Shown here: positions 28,870 to 49,346 of the stretch, piece by piece
Numbering within the stretch: the stretch's first letter is position 1
How the letters are laid out: each line of letters opens with the position of its first letter
NCBI GenBank assembly: GCA_001600495.1
Contig: BCKE01000030.1
Span: forward strand, 143,306-207,305
Length of the DNA: 64,000 bases
Reading direction: 5' to 3'
Origin: Pilasporangium apinafurcum
Taxonomy: Eukaryota > Oomycota > Peronosporomycetes > Pythiales > Pythiaceae
Notes under the pieces: model-generated
Told to the model about the DNA's origin: nothing
The model's database searches: none
What the model saw: the letters and a program-made list of their open reading frames with translations, nothing else
Program-made: the position numbers and the translations under genes

Positions 28870-31800
28870 TCACTTGGTTGTACTCACTTCCGCGGCGTCC
28901 GTATGATTCGCTTTTTTTGTCCACGCAGATTGTATACTTGGCGATAATCTTTCCCATTCTTCCACCTGCCCCTTGTGTTGCCCATCTCTTTGGAATGCAA
29001 CACGTTGTTGTTGCCGTCTCAAGCGCTGCTTGCTGTTTTGCTGAGGATCTAATTTCGTTCGCATATTCATTTCATGCATCTCCATGGCGGTCAAATGGCG
29101 TAGTTCCTGCGCTAACTGGAGCTGCTTGCGCTTCTGCATCTGCTGGCGAAGTTGCAATTGCTGGATATACCGCGCGTGGGAGACTTGGGGAGTTGGTGGT
29201 TCTGATAGTCCTGATCGCTGTTGTAGAAACGGTTGCTTTTCTGTCAAAATTGCAATGTGCTTTTCTAGCTCCCCTATGCGGTGCTTGCCCGCATCTTCTG
29301 TACGCTGCATCGCCATGACTTGCTGCGCCAATTGCTTCAACTGCAACTTCTGCTTGAGCACTTTTCTCTCCAGTTTCCGCTCTTTTAATCGCAGTTTATC
29401 GTTTATATCCTCGAGTTGCACTACTTTCGCCGCGGACTTGTCTGTTTGATCAACCTGAATTTCTAGCTGGGTAATCTGTGCACTCTGTTGCTTTGTTAAA
29501 ACTTCATATTCTGCCTTCTCTTTCTCATACTCTTCCAGTCGACGAGTCAGATTGATGATCTCAGCTTCCAGTTGAGTATTAATGTGCTTCAGAGTCGCTT
29601 GGCACTCCATGCGTTCCTCCAGCGTTTGCTTCATTTGTTGCTGATGATGACGGTGCGCCTTCAGTTCTTCGTTTTCAGCCATGGCGCGTTCAAGTTGATG
29701 TTGTATGTAAGCATTGGCATCGCGTTCTTTTATCAAAGAATCACGAACATGTAATTGCCATAATACTGTGCCAGTGACAATAGAAAGCTGCCTCAAATAT
29801 TCCTGCTTATCTAGTGGTAAACATACCGCAGCGGAATCCAAACATACTGAGCAAATACCTAGGAGGCGGCCATTCCCATCTTCATGTGGCGCAAACATGT
29901 GCAATTTTAGGATGTTGGTCATTTTGAGGAGTTCAGTGGTATCTAAGTCGTCGTTATTATCCGTCTTTGGATCACTCTCGTCCAACCGTAGGCTCGTTCG
30001 CTTGTGATTTAACGATACAAGTCGGAATACAACATTGTCACATCTTAGAAATTGCTTCAGATGGGAGGTGAAATAGGTAACAACCGCAGCAGCACTATTT
30101 AATTCATTGATCGCCGTCATAAATCTGATGAGCGTGGATTTCGCTGCAATTTCTTGCTCTAAACGCTGGTTTGTCGTTGCTACAATGGACGTTTTTGCTC
30201 GATCGACTTCCAGCTGCTCGTTGAGATGCACTGTTCGTACCGTTGATATGATTCGTGTGAGTTGCTGCTCCAACCCCTGGGCAAGCTGCGGTAGATATAC
30301 TTGCATGTCTTCATGATCAAAGACTTTGTCCAAGTTCGAATCCGAAAGAAGTAGGTATCCAGCGACAACGTTCTCTACCTGTTGTTGGCTTGTAGAACCA
30401 TCGCATCGAAACAACTTTACTGCCCTATATTGCCCTATGTCAGCATAGTCTTGAGCATGCGGCTCTTCCAAGTGCAATATGCGATCCTGGTGGCTCTGAC
30501 TGTTAGGCTGGTCCAACATTTCTCGTAGCCATAATGGCATCGATGCTGAATCCATAGCACCAAGATTGTCGTCTGTATGGTGAAATAACTCACATCCCAG
30601 GTTCTGCTTGCGGGTGTCACCCTGCCGAGTCCATATTTTCTTAAATTCGTGTTTCACGACAAACCTCAATGCTGCCATGTCTTTCACCGTTTGGATTTTT
30701 AGCAGAAACGGAACAATTCCAGCATATACATTTACTGGCTGAGGTCTTGAAGAGTCAATGCTTTCAGCATCGTCATCATTATTACCGTTGATGCCACGAT
30801 GGCCATCGTTATGAAAGGCCATCAAAGGAGGAGAAACAACTCCGGAACTATTGTGCGTGTGTGCACATGTTTCAGCGTCACCAATTGAAGAAATGTTGGG
30901 CTCGTATGATCGTTTTAGTGTCGCTTTATCACGTGCACGAATTTGTATCTGATCTCGCCCAGAATCTAGACGTAAATTACCAACCCAACTAACTCCAGTA
31001 GGAGGCTGATTACTTACCGCCGCATGTGTTGATTGTGTGGTTTCCTTGTCATGTTGTTTTCTAGAAACTGCCTCGCAGATCCAAGCGACAAATGGAGCAA
31101 TAGCGCGTAAAAGTTCCTGGATAATTTTTTTCTCTTCATTGCCAATAGCTGCACCGCGCACCGTTATTTCCATTACGCCGACGATTTTATCATCACTTCT
31201 CTGGTTATCAACAGCAAGACTGATTGGGACATAGGAAGCAGTAATCACTTCTGTAGAAGGTTTGGATGAGTTCGCGTGCTCGTCTTCTTCATGAGTTTTG
31301 CTATCAGCAGGTTTACGCTGAATGTCGACTATTTCTCCACTAATATATGCATTCCATAGCTCCTGTGTTGCTGTTGCTTGCGAGATTTGAGTCGATGAAA
31401 ACAATTGTATGGTCCTCTTCCCCGATAGAACAGAAAAGAACCACTTATTTCCTCTGTCGGCGCCATACAATTTAATTTGAGTGACAGATTTGGAACGTTC
31501 CAACGCCGTCTGGATACGATTGAAAACTATGGTTGTCATATCATCCCATTTCTGGGCGAGCTTTTTGGAAGACAGAGACTTAAACGTAACATCTTCAACC
31601 CAGAGGAACGTGTTTGCAAGTTCCTGTGTCAACCCATACAGCATTCGCGTGCGCTGATGCAACGCTTGGTGATTTCGCTTAAGCTTTTGATTTGTGAAAG
31701 TGAGTTGTTGCTGTAAGTTGGATTCATCCTGTGTCTTCCGCTCTACTTGTTGGGTCCAAAGTTTTTCTTGCACCAATTCGTGGCAACGTCTTCGAGTCAG

Positions 31801-34800
31801 ATGACTAAGCAGCTCCATTTGATGGATTTGATAAGCAGGGATTGTATTGTCATTCATCGGAGGGGCGAAAAGGACAATCAAGTACCACATCAGTGGATAT
31901 GAATGTTCCTCTTTCTGTACTTGCACTTCCAAGTCTGTAGGCATACCAATGCAACCCGGAATGATTATCATCTCTAATGATGGAGAATTCTTCGATTGGT
32001 AGTGTTGCGCTTGTTCTGACCTTGCCGAGTTGCTGATTGGAACGCGTATGGTTCGAGCTTTAAAGAGACTTTTCTTACTTGCAGCTCGGACCAGATGCGA
32101 GTCATAAAGATGGTTCCCTTCGGCAGACGCCAGCGAATCATAAACCAAATGGTCATGGCTGTGTTCCATCTGTTCATAAACGTGAACCCTTTTCACATTT
32201 TTTAAACTGGTGACTGCATTTCCCAACGCCATCAATACTTCTTCGCGTTGCTTCGATTTGTTCAGTTTGTCAAGAAAACCGATCGCATGAGAACAAAAAG
32301 GTGCAAAGATATTCTCAATACAATCACGCAAATCCGTGACATTCGATTCATTTTGCATCAGATGATGTTTTATTTCGAGGCAGTTGAGCTCGAGTTGAGC
32401 TTTTTCGACAGTGAGACGATCTCGCTCGTCCAAAAGTGACTTAGACTTGGTCTTCAATGCAGATTGTTGGTTTACGAAGCCCAAAGCATAACCTACGGTT
32501 CCAATGATAGCATCCAGTAGGACTTTGTCTTCCTTTCTTAACAGGTCTTTGTGCTTTATATTAGTTTCCAATACCAATACGCCAACAACAGCCCGTAGAG
32601 CATCAACAAGCACTTCATACCATCGACTAACGCTGTCTCCATCACTCTTTTCCGAAGCTATCTTGTATCGTTTTTGTTGGTACCCGTGACGATGATCATA
32701 CACAAGCTTTGCAGCCTGAATTAACACATCACTTCCATTACAAATGGACTCATGTTTGTTGCCTATTACGCTCAATTGGCTATTCTTGTCCTCATTGCAA
32801 ACGCACAACTGCACATTCACGACGGAATCCCCAAAGAGCGTTGTGATTAGATTTTGTGCCAGAGTAGCAATTCGCTCTTTGTGGTTAGTGCTGTTATCTT
32901 CGACACTTTGGGCGAAACCTTCAATACATTGTGTGATCACTTGATGTAGTACTTTCTGTCGAGTTTGGCTGTCGCTAACTGATAATTGAGTGGATAATAA
33001 TTGGTGATCCAGAGTAGCATATCGGTCTACCCATTCTCGGTGACGATAGATGTGACTGCACGCATCAAGAACACGGTTCGCTGTGATAGTCATGGTATCA
33101 CACCACATATTAGTCTCCTGCGTCTCTTTATGAAATAAGCCCAGCATTATGAGCGGTCCATAGCTCTCACGTTGAATCCAAGATTCATTTTCAAATGCTC
33201 GATTAACGCTTGTAATAACGAGTGTATGCGTTGTGTTATTCGTTTCAGCACTATCACTTGCCTTCTCCACTAAGTGCCATCCGATACGGTCCTGATCATC
33301 AAATTGTTTGCCTTGGCAGGCTGGAAACAATAACGAAATGAGGGGACACAAACTGCGTTGCATCATCATAGCGCAATGATCTCCTGGACACGAACAACGC
33401 GATAGATCCAGTTCGAGGGATTGTACGGATTCGTTATCGCCCATAACTAGTCCGAACTGCTTGAGTAAACTCGTTGTGACAGTGTCCACTGGTGGATGTG
33501 AACACGTAGTCCCGCATGATGTCAATAATTGGGGACTTCCATTCGTATCTGTACTCGATAGACATAAGAGCAAACGTATTGATACAATCTGCCACATGGT
33601 AGGAATGATCTCTCCATTCACCTTGGGCTTCAATATAACTGTATCTTCTGTCGCTCTAAACAGTTTCTCAATGGTAGATTGCGGTTCGAACGTCTCAACT
33701 CCATGATTCGATAGCGTAACGATTGAATTACGAATAGCGTTGTCTACCCGATCCATGAACGCACACTTCGACGCAGCGTGGTGGTTCCAGAGCGTGGCAC
33801 GAATATGATACTCGTCAGCAGTACGCCGCACTTCCTGTTCAACCAAAAGCATATTCTTCATGCTATGTCGCTGTCGAACAAAAATCGTTATGACCGCTAC
33901 CAAGTGCTCAACTTGCGCACTCAGACATCCAGTCGTGGCCTTCAGGTCAGTTGGAACAGATTCGCACGTCAATACGGCAAGTAACCTTGGTTTATGCTTG
34001 CTTGAAGTGGATTCACCGTAAATAGGAAATGAGTGCACATCAGCACCTTCCATTCTGTTCTCATATTGATTTTTCCACTTAGTCAATTCTTGAATACGTT
34101 TGGTTCCATGTGCCATAGTCCAAAGGCTAGCTGAAGGGGTATCGATGATCCATAATGTCACATTAATCCACGTTAATGCATCGATGATTGGAAAAATATC
34201 AGACCAGTATGCATCTTCCCCCTTCAGATTAATTGCGTCAATATGATTGGTGGGATGAGACAGAGCTGTTAGCGACCGCAGAAATGTATGCACTCCATAC
34301 CAATGATCACAAGTCAGTCTGAGAGCATTTAGCTGGCACGTTTGATCATGTATTGTTTCCATTGCTTGTTGATACTCATGATCCTTGTCCCCCAACGCCT
34401 GATCTTTTGAGTTGAGGTACATCAAATGATGAAAGAGATTCTGCAATAATCCACCTAACCACTCCAGTTCTTCAACAACTTCGTGCACTTGATTCTCATC
34501 CAGCGAATCAGTATTCTTTGGCTTCCATGATACGTAGAACATACCAGTAGACGTAACCGACTGCGAATCCAGCAAGCGTTTGGCAAACCAGTGCTCATGG
34601 GATGTCGACTCTTCATTTTCATCATCACACACAGCTCCTTGTTTGATCAGCTCGATCCTTTCAGGGTCGAGCTTCTCGAGAAAAAGATGCACAGCAGATT
34701 TTGGCGATGATTCCACGAGATTTTCTTCTATGATTAATTCCATGTTCACGACATTGACTGCTTCATTCTGAAGGAGCAGAATTTTGCGTGAACAAATCTG

Positions 34801-42101: not shown

Positions 42102-42232
42102 TAAGTGCCCAATTCAAAAAAGTGGACGTATAAAATAAGCGTTTATGGTATGTCTGTCTGCCAACCATGATTGCTTTCAAAACATACTTTGGTTGCACAA
42201 CTGGATTGGAAATAGTTAGCGATGACTTCATG
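42102..42232. other. Short gap upstream of ALG1
   Basis: Presumed promoter of ALG1. Nothing specific seen. Confidence 0.4.
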
Positions 42233-42405
42233 GATCATATGAGATACGAAAGCAAGTCAAGGAAGACCTTCTATTTCTTGTTTGGGTCCAATTTAACAAA
42301 AGTTAAGACTAGACAATCGCGAAGTAGGTATCTCCGACACCTGGACTCGATGAGTCCAGGAGAATAGGTATTCATTCCTGAGAAAGATACTTCTAGTGTG
42401 ATGTT
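42233..42405 (-). mobile_element. Solo 3' end of a Fanzor/IS607-type element (copy A)
   Basis: This block aligns with 46300-46460, the 3' end of the element at 46.3-47.5 kb. Both start at GATCATATGA, share AAAGTTAAGACTAGACAA and hold the same hairpin. Read on the minus strand, the coding tail RSIFLRNEYLFSWT matches the Fanzor tail RNIFPKNKHLLSWT of the other copy. No other part of the element is recognisable upstream, so this is a solo end or a deletion derivative. Neighbouring sequence outside the block is unrelated between copies. Confidence 0.7.
42340..42360. repeat. Hairpin in Fanzor 3' end, copy A
   Basis: A perfect 9-base stem, CCTGGACTC paired with GAGTCCAGG, with a 3-base loop. The same stem with a different loop base order occurs at 46406-46426. 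Confidence 0.85.
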
Positions 42406-44520: not shown

Positions 44521-46299
44521 GATGAACGAATGAGCCTGCTTTCAGCTACTGGTGAAGTGATTGATTCTCCTGTACTCGATCGATTTGGGTCCTTCACTTA
44601 TATGTCGTTCTCTGCTCCTCCAGTTGTGTACGTGTGTGGATGTGTGAGAACAAATGCGCTTCCAAGTGTGTGTCCTATAGTGTAGACGGCTGAGTTCCAC
44701 CCCTGTTGCCACGTTTTGTTGTTCTCACCCACTAATCACTACTGCTCGCTTTTGGCTCCTCTGCCCCACTTCAAATCTTGCAAAGTTACTCGTCTTTCGT
44801 ATGGTCTTTGATAGGATCAGATTCGCACCCAGCGGCTCTCCTCTCCGCTCCTCCTCCTCCTCTCTTTTCCCATCTCCTCCAAGGGCAAGTTTATTTTCTT
44901 TCGTTGAGATGGGTGGAAGGAACATAAAAGATGGAATGGATTCCGATTCCAAAACGGTTTCGATCTTTCATCTCTAGCCCAATCAACGCGGAGATTGCTC
45001 TTGACATTGCCGACTGATTGGATGTTCAGGTCCAAGCAAGAGCAACCCATAGAAGAAATATCGAAGCTGCTTCTTCTCTCTGCCACAATGTTACAAATCC
45101 ACGTATTATTTTATTTATTTATTTTTTCTCTTGTCAACGCCAGAGTGAAGAAGAACAATATGTGGGCAATGGCGAAAGAAATGGAAACTTAAGCACTACG
45201 CATCCTTCGACATGAAGAGGAAGAAGCCACCGTTTTCTTCTTTTGCATCGTACACGTACTCTTTTTCCAGAATACAACTTTGTATGGATTGATGTGACTA
45301 AAGACAGGAATAATACAATCAAGAATCAAGATGGATCTTTAACCGTCATGAGATATTTGAGGAATTTTTGTACCTTCATTGATACAATAGTGACGACACG
45401 GATGACATTATGGATTCTTTTTGCTCTACGGTTGGAATGTCGACAGCGATGGCCGTGACTCGTAAGATCCACACAAAACAGGAGATCGAAATGGCACATC
45501 ACTACGCACCTCTTCGTTAGTTTATAAGGATACACTCGTGAAGGAACAGAAAAGATCGGTCGGTGGATGAGTTGGCAACCTACAAGAGAAAGATCTTCTG
45601 CCGCCCTATAAAAAGGATCTCCAGAACAAACTACAACAGAGCAGGGGCGATATCATGCGATCTTTGGGTCACGATGGCTGTTACAAGAGCCACACGCCCA
45701 TTTTAAGGAAAGATCTGTCCTCTGGGTCATTCCTCCTGAATGCGGATGGGCGTAATGCTTTTGTCAGAACAGGCAACTTCTCCTTTATTCACAAATGCTT
45801 GTGGACAATGCAAGATATAGAGACGACTTAATCTTATTATATGACAAACTTCAATAGGAAAGAGTACCTTTATAAAAACCGAAAAAAGCAAACAAAACCA
45901 CTGCCTTCTTCGTAATTGTGCTCGTGTGTTTTGAGAAGCACAGCATGTATGAACGAAGCAACGGTCGTGAACGTCTTTTTAGTAAACACTCTTTGAGGTT
46001 GTTGGTGTCACGCTGGTCATGTCGGGATATTAGTTTAGAGAGATCTTGGTTATGACGGACAGGAACAAAAATCAAAAAAAAGTGATGTACCTGGAGTGAG
46101 TTTGGCTCGGCTTTGTGCGAGAAGCTTCAGATGTTTTCATAGATCTGAGTTAGCCCACACCTGGAATAGATCTTAGTTTGCAAGTGGACGAATACGCTCG
46201 ATGGTTTGTAGTTATATCGAATGCAGTCAATCGTATCGTCTCTTCAAAGCTACAATCATTTTATTTTGGGTTTCTTCGAAAATTATACCTTTACCCAGA
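44521..46299. other. Intergenic region upstream of the Myb gene
   Basis: About 1.8 kb. A possible minus-strand initiator TCACTTC lies at 44554-44560, 34 bases before the Myb ATG. Pyrimidine-rich and TCC-repeat sequence lies at 44840-44880. No gene, RNA or repeat was supported in the rest. Confidence 0.5.
44554..44560 (-). promoter_or_regulatory. Initiator-like box of the Myb gene
   Basis: Minus-strand TCACTTC matches YCAYTYY and sits 34 bases upstream of the ATG. Confidence 0.35.
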
Positions 46300-46437
46300 G
46301 ATCATATGAAATTCGAAAGTAACTCAGGAAAGACCTCCTGTTTCTTGTCTGGGATGACGCAATAAAAGTTAAGACTAGACAACTGCGCAGTAGCTATCTC
46401 TGACACCTGGACTCATTGAGTCCAGGAGAGTAGGTGC
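46300..46437 (-). repeat. Fanzor 3' end block, copy B (candidate guide-RNA region)
   Basis: Homologous to 42233-42370. It spans the last Fanzor codons, the hairpin and about 110 bases beyond the stop. In TnpB/Fanzor elements the guide RNA is transcribed from this part and ends at the element boundary. Function here is inference; homology of the two blocks is seen directly. Confidence 0.6.
46406..46426. repeat. Hairpin in Fanzor 3' end, copy B
   Basis: A perfect 9-base stem, CCTGGACTC with GAGTCCAGG, and loop ATT. The Fanzor stop codon (minus strand, 46413-46415) falls inside it. Confidence 0.85.
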
Positions 46438-46683
46438 TTATTCTTGGGAAAGATGTTTCTGACAGCGTTGACATCTCTGTCGAGGACGAACTTGCAGTGA
46501 GGACAGTTAAAGACTTTCTGGTACCAAATATCTTGCGGAGAAGTTGCTTTTGTCCCTTCGTTGGATACAGCTTCACTTTCAGAGTGTTGTTTGGACTTGG
46601 TTTGTCTATCTCGCGTCGTTTGATCCTCGAGTCTCGGAGATCAGAGTCTTCTAGGCATTCCTGCCATTTCTTTTGACAGCGAA
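46413..46683 (-). pseudogene. Fanzor/TnpB-type RNA-guided nuclease, internally deleted
   Basis: The N-terminal part reads NNTLKVKLYPTKGQKQLLRK followed by IFGT, the hallmark start of TnpB/Fanzor proteins (basic strand, YPT-x-x-Q-x-x-LL-x-x-x-FGT). Directly after it, one frame over, comes the C-terminal zinc-finger half and last RuvC motif: FNCPHCKFVLDRDVNAVRN, with C-x2-C and the catalytic-type DRD-x-N-A. Everything between is missing: RuvC-I, RuvC-II and the first zinc knuckle, several hundred residues in intact relatives. The junction is near 46513-46522. The frame ends with TGA inside the hairpin. The upstream frame overlaps the end of the TnpA relic. It cannot be a working nuclease. Confidence 0.8.
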
Positions 46684-47252
46684 GATGTTAACACGAGACC
46701 AGAGGTCTTCTTGGGGTTCTTGCGCTTTCATGTCTTTATTCTTGTATTGTGAAGTTGTTGGTCAGCGTGAATCACGACTTAGACGCTATGCGCTTTATAC
46801 ATTTGCGCGAAGAGTCCGTATTCAAATCAATATTGAACGGTAACCGCAATTCTTGAAATTTGCTCTCTATATACCATTTCCACCAATCTGGACAGTCCTC
46901 GTTTGCTGTACTTGAAACTGGAACCAATGTCGGCAGCGAATTCACTATCTGGGAAAGCAGTCGATAGCAATACTTTCTGTCGTACAACATCGGACCGTAG
47001 GTTGTTTGATGAGACTTGACAGGAAACGATCGTAGATCTTTGTTGATCCTGGTGTTGAGGTGATGAAATGGCATCCATTTCTTGTTCCAAACGATCGTCA
47101 ATCGATTCAAGATTGTACAACCGTGTTCTGTGCCCGCTACTGCTTGAGATAGCTCCGGCGTTAATCAGCCCTTGAAGATCCCATCCTCTAATGGTTTCAG
47201 GATGGATACCAAATATCTCTCGAAATTTGACAGAGGATACATACTTGGTCAT
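46684..47252 (-). pseudogene. IS607-family serine recombinase TnpA, decayed
   Basis: From ATG 47252 the frame runs 141 codons. Residues 1-50 are a MerR-like helix-turn-helix (YVSSVKFREIFGIHPETIRG, then W and GHRTRLYNLES), typical of IS607 TnpA. Residues 75-140 are the serine-resolvase core: SCQVSSNN holds the nucleophile serine, then RQKVLL, DIGSSFKYSKRGLSRLVE and ISRIAV. The frame hits TGA at 46827, where RLxRFGY is expected; beyond it FEYGLFAQMYKAHSV and, in another frame, EDLWSRVNIFAVKRNG match the usual C terminus. The arginine normally two residues before the serine is Gln (codon 47016-47018). It is therefore inactive. Confidence 0.8.
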
Positions 47253-47264
47253 GCCTTTCACCTG

Positions 47265-47312
47265 AAATTGATGTCGTGAGATTGACAAGTGAAATGGAAG
47301 ACAGTCAATGAA
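47265..47312. repeat. Direct repeat at the left side of the IS607-type element, unit 1
   Basis: Roughly 80 % identical to 47472-47522, with the shared word GAGATTGACAAGTGA. The unit overlaps the region just upstream of the TnpA start. Confidence 0.7.
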
Positions 47313-47471
47313 AAAAGAGCTAGTATCTTGTTTTCATTGATGCCGTTATTAGGAACGAAAAAAATCAAGTACTCTTCGCAGTTACACATATAAAAACACA
47401 ATGAACTTTTCCTATAGATATTGTACACTCGAACTTTGGTAGATGATCTGTACTTGTGTACGTCTTAACTA

Positions 47472-47522
47472 AAATCGATGTCGCGAGATTGACAAGTGAG
47501 ATAGATGATAGTCAGTCACGAA
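47472..47522. repeat. Direct repeat at the left side of the IS607-type element, unit 2
   Basis: The second unit of the pair, about 160 bases beyond the first. It may mark the left end, or a subterminal recombinase-binding repeat. Confidence 0.65.
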
Positions 47523-48234
47523 GCTACACTTGAAAGTTTACAGCTATGGATGATATGCGGAGTAACGTACTAGAGATGAAGAGCCGTCGCACGGCATTAT
47601 TCAAGTGTTGTCGTTGCTTGTTGCGGATGAAGCAGCGCGTCGCTTCCCACAAAGCCGTACAACCTAAATCTGCACAGACTGTCTGACTTGCGTTACATAG
47701 AGTGAGTTTTTTATTGTTCGCATTTATTCGATCGTGGGGATGACTCATTAGTCCGGTCTTACTCGCGATCTTCGCAGGATGGCAGTCAGCAGGATCCGGT
47801 GCAGCCTTTCTTGGACCGTTGAATGGATGTAAGAAAATTCGATAAACTACTCGACTAGAGTGCAAAAGGCGTAGATGCCTTAAGTGGTTGACCTGCTTGA
47901 CGAATACCATTGCGAAACACCGAATGTCGAAAACCTCTCCAATGGCATAACCTTCTCAGTACCCATTTCTTGGTGGTTTTTGAGATTGGTCAACCAATCA
48001 TCGACCAAGAATAACCACAACATGGTGGCGAGACATCAGTGGATATATTTTATCCAATGGAATACGACCAAATCATAATGATATCATATGATTCGCTTAA
48101 AAAAACCTACAACCTCCCAGATGTAGCGGTTGACTTCACATTCCAGACCGACACATTTCCATTATTGCGCGAAGAGCTCCGGTCGGATCATCGTTCGTAT
48201 TAACGCAGAAAGTGATCATCTCTGCAACGTTTCC
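47523..48234. other. Intergenic region with an unexplained open frame
   Basis: A minus-strand frame at 47524-47910 (128 codons) is open next to the element. It contains a Cys/Arg-rich stretch (DLGCTALWEATRCFIRNKQR) but matches no family known to me. The remainder is A/T-rich upstream sequence of the next gene. Confidence 0.4.
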
Positions 48235-49346
48235 ATGGCCGAGTTCTCATTTTTGACCCGTTTGGTGGCATCATTACTATTATTGGCGGTGTCCGCGGTG
48301 GTCTGGCGACTGCTGTACCCATCAACATTGCAAAATCCATCCCAGAAACCACTCTCAACAGCCACAACAAGCAAAAAGGAGAAAAAGAAAACCAAGAAAA
48401 AAGCCGCGAGAAAAGCAAATAAACAGCGGGAAAATCAAGAACAGAACGTGCATTCATCGATACAATTGACGCAACAACAATCTCAGGCTGCCGTTAGTGA
48501 CGATGACGACGACGAATTCGATGAGGATGACGGCTTGACAGCCGCGCAGGTCCTGATGAACCGGCGCTTTCAACCCACAGCGATTAGTGGCGGCAAAAGC
48601 GCAAATTCGGCGCAAATTGATCCACAAGAGACGTTTCGCGTGCAGGATCAAGTTCTTGCGCGGTTTGAAGGCGGCACAGAGTGGTTTCCAGCTACGATCC
48701 TAGTGGTATGAGATAAAAGAAGCGATCACAACGTGAATGGCTTATCATTGAATTGTTGTTGTCTTTCCAGGTGCGCCGAGGACGAGAGTACAATATTAAA
48801 TATGACGACGGCGCGATTGAATACCGAGTACCGCATGCAATGATCAAGGCACGGCCGAAAATAGCAGATGCACAAGCTTCCACTTCAGTGGAAACGTCCT
48901 CACCATCATCCAGTAGATCTTCAACAGACGAAGAGATGAAAAAGAAGAAAGGCAATAAACAACAATTGAAGGAAGAAGCGGTTGCAAATATGAACGAAAA
49001 CGCTGATGTACTCGAAAATAAAGCTGAACAGCAAGTTGAGGAAGATAATGATAATGACGATGAGGAGGATGAAGACGAAGATGATGATGGGTGGCAAATG
49101 GTAGGCAAGACCGCTACAACTAATACGAAGCGAAAGGCTGTAGCTTCTACAAATGAAGAAGCGAAGCAGCTGCCTCATGGTGACGGTCTGACCAAAAGGC
49201 AGCGTGAAAATCGTCGTAAGAAAGAACGACAGAAGGAAATTAAGGAAATGGCGCGGGTACAAGCACAGGCACGTGGACTGCATGCGCGGTGGGGAGGAAC
49301 TTTGAGCCAGATGCGATATGTTCCCCCACCAACAAAGCAAGAATGA
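48235..49346 (+). CDS. Membrane-anchored Tudor-like domain protein
   Basis: Exons 48235-48705 and 48771-49346 join in phase 0 to 348 residues. Residues 5-25 are a strong N-terminal anchor (FLTRLVASLLLLAVSAVVWR). A Lys-rich then acidic linker follows. Near residues 138-187 is a small beta-barrel resembling Tudor/Agenet folds: FRVQDQVLARFEGGTEWFPA, TILV, then the strand YNIKYDDGAIEYRVPH. The domain is split by the intron. The second half is acidic (long D/E runs), then W-Q-M-V and a basic helix (KRQRENRRKKERQKEIKEMA). The combination suggests an ER or nuclear-envelope protein with a peptide- or RNP-binding domain. The role is unknown. Confidence 0.75.

Follow-up and report, generated by a model that had tools for sequence, protein, structure and literature searches.

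A decayed, internally deleted IS607-type Fanzor2 element, one of many related copies in the oomycete Pilasporangium apinafurcum

How the remains of a serine transposase gene and the two ends of a Fanzor gene came to lie side by side, and what has become of the element that carried them, is the question raised by a short stretch of the Pilasporangium apinafurcum genome. The stretch is part of a window of 64,000 nucleotides (contig BCKE01000030.1, positions 143,306 to 207,305), which is the whole of the DNA analysed here and to which positions refer. An initial annotation, made from the letters alone, placed an IS607-type element at 46300-47522, with tnpA and Fanzor parts head to tail on the minus strand. 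Profile searches with TnpA and Fanzor models bear out this arrangement, both parts being matched (NF033518 below its curated cut-off; PF12323 and PF07282 above theirs; proteins P0078 and P0121 in addition), and the Fanzor is a Fanzor2. The element is decayed, and its detectable body, from about 46288 to about 47435 on the minus strand, is close to the extent first given. The features of the locus are:

46288-47435, minus strand: decayed, internally deleted IS607-Fanzor2 element (genomic copies of 74-84% DNA identity over all or part of it; right-end profile; 13-copy alignment)
46617-47252, minus strand: relic of tnpA, IS607-type serine transposase (matches to P0121, NF033518 and P0078; three TGA and one TAA in frame)
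46520-46585, minus strand: N-terminal piece of Fanzor2, HTH_OrfB (PF12323, 24.3 bits against a cut-off of 21)
46510-46528, minus strand: deletion junction, TTTGGTACC joined to AGAAAGTCTT (comparison with copy L039; about 988 bp of Fanzor2 absent; ACC common to both sides)
46452-46520, minus strand: C-terminal piece of Fanzor2, second half of the zinc ribbon and DRDVNAVRN (PF07282, 32.7 bits, profile positions 20-60)
46288-46468, minus strand: conserved right-end region with hairpin-like CTGGACTCAATGAGTCCAG (alignment of 32 right ends; expected place of a guide, or omega, RNA)
47428-47662, minus strand: further stretch with similarity to the type A left region (profile positions 404-612 at 47636-47426, E 1e-47)
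42222-42401, minus strand: lone relic of a right end, belonging to this element family (right-end profile; about 4 kb from the main element)

The tnpB-type gene lies directly downstream of tnpA and in the same orientation, as is the order in the IS607 family. The minus-strand frame 46827-47333 matches the NCBIfam model transpos_IS607 (NF033518) with 45.8 bits (E 4.7e-12), which falls short of the curated cut-off, 110. The frame is 54% identical to the TnpA part of P0078 from Phytophthora infestans over 140 aa, and equally so to P0121 over 138 aa; the latter protein itself scores 137.8 bits on this model, above the cut-off. When P0121 is aligned to the genome, its residues 1-218 of 235 extend over 46617-47252 (C30:189922-190557) at 45% identity, across the four in-frame stops. 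The Pfam match of the relic to MerR is weak (17.7 bits, below cut-off), and the Pfam search of this region gave no Resolvase match. P0078 holds TnpA and the Fanzor N-terminus in one protein; it and P0036 of P. cactorum are annotated proteins in which TnpA, whole or in part, is fused to Fanzor2, either to its start or to its body, so that the pair may be read as one gene.

Fanzor2 survives in the window as two pieces in different frames, the HTH_OrfB match in the minus frame 46394-46687 and the PF07282 match (cut-off 26.3) in the minus frame 46413-46640. The start YPTKGQKQLLRKIFGT and the end CPHC..DRDVNAVRN, taken together in the initial annotation as a single relic, are both present and in the right order; their placement in different frames is due to the loss of about 988 bp between them. 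Copy L039 carries 988 bp between the two ACC sites that are fused in the window, and since ACC is common to both sides, a single deletion at this 3-bp repeat explains the junction. It is because the deletion is out of frame that start and end motifs had been seen so close together. The second CxxC and the DRD motif are retained, the first CxxC falls within the deletion, and the region of the DPG motif and the alternative Glu is likewise gone; in L039 the C4 ribbon is complete.

On the right, the right-end profile stops at about 46288 and assigns the window copy to end type B. On the left, the 13-copy alignment gives a limit at about 47435, with a related stretch continuing to about 47636-47662. 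Position 47435, where the shared type B segment stops, is at most a candidate for the true terminus; 47428-47662 again resembles the type A left region, and 47428-47514 repeats 47219-47307 at 75% identity. As the genomic copies are only 74-84% identical to the window copy, neither its ends nor its target site nor its activity can be deduced from this copy itself.

Searches for intact copies gave an answer that differs between the two genes. Fanzor2 has an open frame of 504 aa at L039 (contig C62), with PF12323 and PF07282 above their cut-offs and PF01385 just below; for tnpA, by contrast, there are stops in each of the 20 genomic matches that span 180 or more of the 235 residues, and the stop-free matches are shorter pieces only (150 of 257 candidates scored). 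The L039 protein keeps the catalytic triad (DPG, alternative Glu, DRDVNAARN), and both markers of Fanzor2, a DPG at RuvC-I and an alternative Glu that precedes the zinc ribbon by six residues, are present. The same markers prevail among the proteins P0001-P0086: a zinc ribbon was found in 71, all 71 with the alternative Glu and 61 of these with DPG by our own pattern, and none was found in the other 15. By sequence the best PDB match is the mimivirus Fanzor2 9b0l (TnpB-like protein L79; E 2e-25), which is also the nearest fold to the AlphaFold model (mean pLDDT 80, pTM 0.66); this closest solved relative is 23% identical to L039 over the structural alignment.

Such elements in eukaryotes had been noted as often linked to giant viruses, with a possible transfer event. 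That Fanzor2/IS607 elements do occur in giant viruses (PMC3627910) and that the nearest solved structure is mimiviral would agree with a recent transfer of this kind into the genome. The relatives of the L039 protein point elsewhere: among them are proteins of Globisporangium splendens (60%), P. nicotianae (58%), P. citrophthora and P. cactorum, and the named eukaryotic ones belong to Globisporangium, Phytophthora, Nothophytophthora and a Pythium, in keeping with the oomycete-like genome recognized at the outset. A 74-row tree, which was built without reference giant viruses, nests L039 in a 29-row clade (100/100) that takes in every one of the 7 named oomycete rows; its nearest bacterial group is made up of cyanobacterial proteins (fork support 83/86), and a cyanobacterial link of Fanzor origins has been proposed (PMC10711439). 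A search of IMG/VR gave three loci of 27-30% identity that group with bacteria in the tree (100/97), and the copies are old, so that against these observations a recent giant-virus origin is hardly credible. The genome holds a second Fanzor2 family (L052, L054 and L057 on contigs C53, C29 and C24), of which the L057 frame groups in the tree with a Phytophthora protein named transposase L79.

Such elements had also been regarded as uncommon in eukaryotes; in this 36.5-Mb assembly the element is not rare. PF07282, with other Fanzor families counted in, is matched at least 150 times (150 of 852 candidates scored), and TnpA likewise at least 150 times (of 257 candidates, 150 were scored). Two open frames of 8140 and 2332 aa from the PF07282 search were rejected as runs of N. 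The junction pattern itself recurs at 108 places (up to 2 mismatches; 0 for the reversed control), and in a DNA search with the window piece (633 candidates) 20 of 40 scored first segments, the window included, cross the junction unbroken, while 9 of the 40 begin at query positions 321-326, that is, at the junction. For 9 of 13 junction-bearing copies the flanks, taken as 600 bp per side, are unrelated on both sides; the exceptions are L019 and L020, which are identical to each other on one side, L013, similar to both on one side, and L012, whose flanks match each other in inverted orientation. Because the junction recurs at 108 places, is crossed in 20 of 40 segments and has unrelated flanks in 9 of 13 copies, the window copy belongs to a large set of derivatives that lack the nuclease. 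Among the 108 places, some sit in inverted or tandem duplications and hence are not independent insertions. Copy L018 combines type A ends with the window-type junction, and since the junction is found with both end types, gene conversion could have aided its spread. In copies L045-L048 Fanzor is joined elsewhere, after TTKTCS, and the right-end core is kept.

The reading we favor, with a probability of roughly 0.85, is that the window copy is a dead, non-autonomous IS607-derived element whose shortened form multiplied, most likely via proteins acting in trans. What has been observed are the parts themselves, the common junction, the number of its places, the unrelated flanks of 9 of 13 copies and the stops in 20 of 20 long tnpA matches; from these we infer spread by transposition in trans and a lineage that is now inactive. 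The ancestor would have carried tnpA, for a serine transposase with a MerR-type HTH, then Fanzor2, for an RNA-guided nuclease, and a right end beside the place where Fanzor2 stops. A single out-of-frame deletion, from one ACC triplet to another, would have taken about 988 bp out of Fanzor2, RuvC-I and the alternative Glu included. The shortened form would then have multiplied, most likely through proteins supplied in trans, and tnpA and the copies would have decayed.

The copies might instead have been carried along as passengers of segmental duplications, without transposing. The whole flank shared by L019 and L020, the palindromic L012 and several inverted pairs of equal-score matches in the PF07282, window-DNA and TnpA searches would fit such a process, which the unrelated flanks of 9 of the 13 examined copies and the presence of junction places on many contigs (100 of 108 listed) render very improbable as the general explanation. 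At L012 (C21:~30700-34760) the inverted repeat has arms that are 100% identical and reach at least 600 bp past the element, and it is either a recent palindrome or an assembly artefact. Pairs of equal score in inverted orientation, about 2-50 kb apart, occur on C1, C3, C22, C23, C44 and other contigs, which suggests inverted duplications or fold-back assembly errors.

While many copies lack most of the nuclease gene, the ends have stayed numerous. The type A left end TTNNCCTTTATTCCCCCACTTCTCC is found at 146 places and the type A right end CCCAAACAATAACGGTTAA at 77 (up to 3 mismatches; controls 0 and 13, respectively), and the type B right end TCATATGATCTCTTGAGG at 233 (up to 2 mismatches; control 1). 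Left and right type A ends form 38 pairs, of which 29 are short forms that span 490-513 bp, and several of the short forms contain a PF07282 match (e.g., C79, C11 and C48). The tetranucleotides at the two ends are TTAA/TTAA in 26 of the pairs, TTAT/TTAT in 2 and differing in 10 (one TTTG/TTTA). This count covers 100 of the 146 left ends and favors TTAA, which the right-end pattern includes. Letters that depart from the consensus coincide at the two ends of a pair beyond what shuffles give (3 letters in common, p 0.0016; 2 of the 38 pairs with a non-TTAA sequence identical at both ends, p 0.008), although two of the pairs, on C65, may be one duplication. Five more two-ended copies lie outside the pair test, with TTAA/TTAA at L018, L042, L043 and L044 and TTCA/TTAA at L040, and a short plus-strand copy, L056, has ATAA/ATAA. 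In 15 copies the left flanks are T-rich (54% T at -1 to -6, against a background of 29%) and the right flanks are not A-rich. TTAA was considered also for the type B right ends and discarded: it follows only 6 of 100 listed (of 218), most being followed by T or C. A search for empty sites, made with the joined flanks of type A copies (13 pairs), found none, so that TTAA could belong to the element.

The transposon piggyBac uses TTAA, and its domain has three matches in this genome. In one of them, L059 on contig C5, the frame that immediately precedes the piggyBac domain resembles a frame encoded by the left region of L039, a region of type A (one-to-one comparison: 37% over 51 aa, E 1.6e-8; 10.8 bits with nhmmer, against at most 2.4 in 60 shuffles). 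A module of 128 aa defined there (L059:1015-1398) has 63 matches in the genome (149 of 149 candidates scored). Two of these adjoin piggyBac matches, at L059 itself and on C40, and 18 lie no more than 1.5 kb from a family feature on our lists, against a chance expectation of 1.2; the lists hold 100 of the 146 left ends, 150 tnpA rows and 12 of the 108 junctions, and are without type B ends. As the other 43 are near no listed feature, the module is not special to piggyBac. Its Pfam match is weak (SH3-like, 15.2 bits, cut-off 26.2), and PDB held nothing better than E 0.63. As judged from the sequence comparisons, the type A left region shares this module with piggyBac genes. The type A terminal motifs were not found at L059, and the piggyBac locus L060 gave no significant family match. 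Near a piggyBac remnant at L061 (C12:~189390-192600) there is a family copy with a type B right end, about 0.5 kb away and in the same orientation.

The evidence is divided on whether type A copies are, or once were, mobile as a piggyBac-like TTAA cut-and-paste element with the IS607 gene pair as cargo, and not through IS607 recombination. IS607 is reported to have a GG target, no target duplication and no terminal inverted repeats (PMC6188088), and TTAA at both type A ends does not fit such a target; the agreement between paired ends beyond the consensus, the further two-ended copies, the resemblance at L059 and the position of the module beside two of three piggyBac matches and, in 18 cases, near family features are all in favor of capture. 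Against it stand the lack of an empty site for the 13 flank pairs, a right-end pattern that itself contains TTAA, the C65 pairs that may count once, the absence of type A termini from L059, the 43 module matches away from any feature in incomplete lists, the rarity of TTAA after type B right ends, and an inverted similarity past TTAACC that is weak (8 of 16 positions). We regard capture as a serious possibility that falls somewhat short of even odds. The retained right end, for its part, is a candidate for transposase binding, for a guide RNA, or for both. Deleted copies might have kept it for a guide RNA that recruited intact Fanzor2 made elsewhere, which would aid their persistence and spread: differently deleted forms (the window-type junction, the TTKTCS joins of L045-L048 and the 490-513 bp forms) retain the right-end core, and the open L039 frame with its triad is in the genome. 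The RNA signal is weak, however, with a consensus fold over the aligned right ends of 32 copies of -2.1 kcal/mol and 7 pairs, 2 of them with two-sided change, with z of -0.8 to -1.9 for single-sequence folds of 4 right ends, and with no Rfam match in window positions 45500-48500; end-binding by the transposase, moreover, would preserve the same DNA. Since decayed copies are poor material for covariation, the weak fold speaks neither for nor against a guide RNA, and on the whole we consider persistence through a guide RNA unlikely. A combined scheme is similarly doubtful, in which a TTAA-inserting element with a piggyBac-type N-terminal module would have carried the IS607 tnpA-Fanzor2 pair, as a step toward Fanzor2*, and nuclease-less derivatives with a guide-RNA end would have multiplied via nuclease in trans.

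Fanzor2 of Phytophthora has been in print since 2013 (Bao and Jurka, PMC3627910); in Table 1 of that report P. sojae, P. capsici and P. ramorum are each listed with a single family. The present element resembles those in being a serine-recombinase element with Fanzor2 in an oomycete host, with related proteins, and differs from what is described there in its hundreds of ends, its common nuclease-deleting junction and its TTAA-flanked branch. It shares with bacterial IS607 (PMC6188088) the tnpA type and the gene order, whereas TTAA at the type A ends departs from the GG target without duplication reported for the latter. Fanzor2*, the name given to Fanzor2 in cut-and-paste eukaryotic transposons, as in Chloropicon primus and molluscs (PMC10711439), is similar in DPG, alternative Glu and a possible target duplication; here, in contrast, tnpA relics are still inside the element, the ends have only a short TTAACC/GGTTAA symmetry, and the duplication is a candidate one. 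Should the TTAA flanks be genuine target duplications, the family would qualify as a possible link on the path from IS607 Fanzor2 to Fanzors of ordinary eukaryotic transposons, a path that has been proposed from other evidence (PMC10711439). Among titles and abstract starts of the open-licence PMC literature, no report was found of mass-amplified Fanzor2 deletion derivatives or of TTAA-flanked IS607 in oomycetes. The family shows, within one eukaryotic genome, the stepwise reduction of an RNA-guided nuclease element while its ends remain numerous, and it cautions that fragments annotated as Fanzor may be what a deletion has left behind.

A different TnpB/Fanzor-like protein, with an open frame of 691 aa, is encoded at L051:2687-4759 on contig C135, with a fragment at L050:2614-3132 on C7, a contig of 875 kb. 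This family has DPG together with a RuvC-II Glu at the canonical position (IFLEKFES) and Ala at the alternative one, and pieces of a DDE_3 (IS630/Tc1-mariner-like) transposase lie near the L051 gene. With a crude pattern, the alternative Glu was found in 0 of its 36 closest relatives (P0171-P0206), 25 of which have the canonical-Glu pattern and 11 not, and in 68 of 84 further relatives (P0207-P0290), which include 6 with the canonical pattern and 10 in which no zinc ribbon was found. In a 69-row tree, whose outgroup label is our own and is matched by the source name only for P0111 (Acidobacteria TnpB), the rows with DPG and canonical Glu form two groups among alternative-Glu rows, with a single origin in 44% of bootstrap trees. 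According to PMC10711439, canonical-Glu Fanzors appear to be mis-annotated prokaryotic TnpBs. We would argue otherwise for the L051 family, because type A ends also occur on C7, and C135 holds a Fanzor2 piece whose place in the tree is with oomycete rows; this side observation may matter more than the window element.
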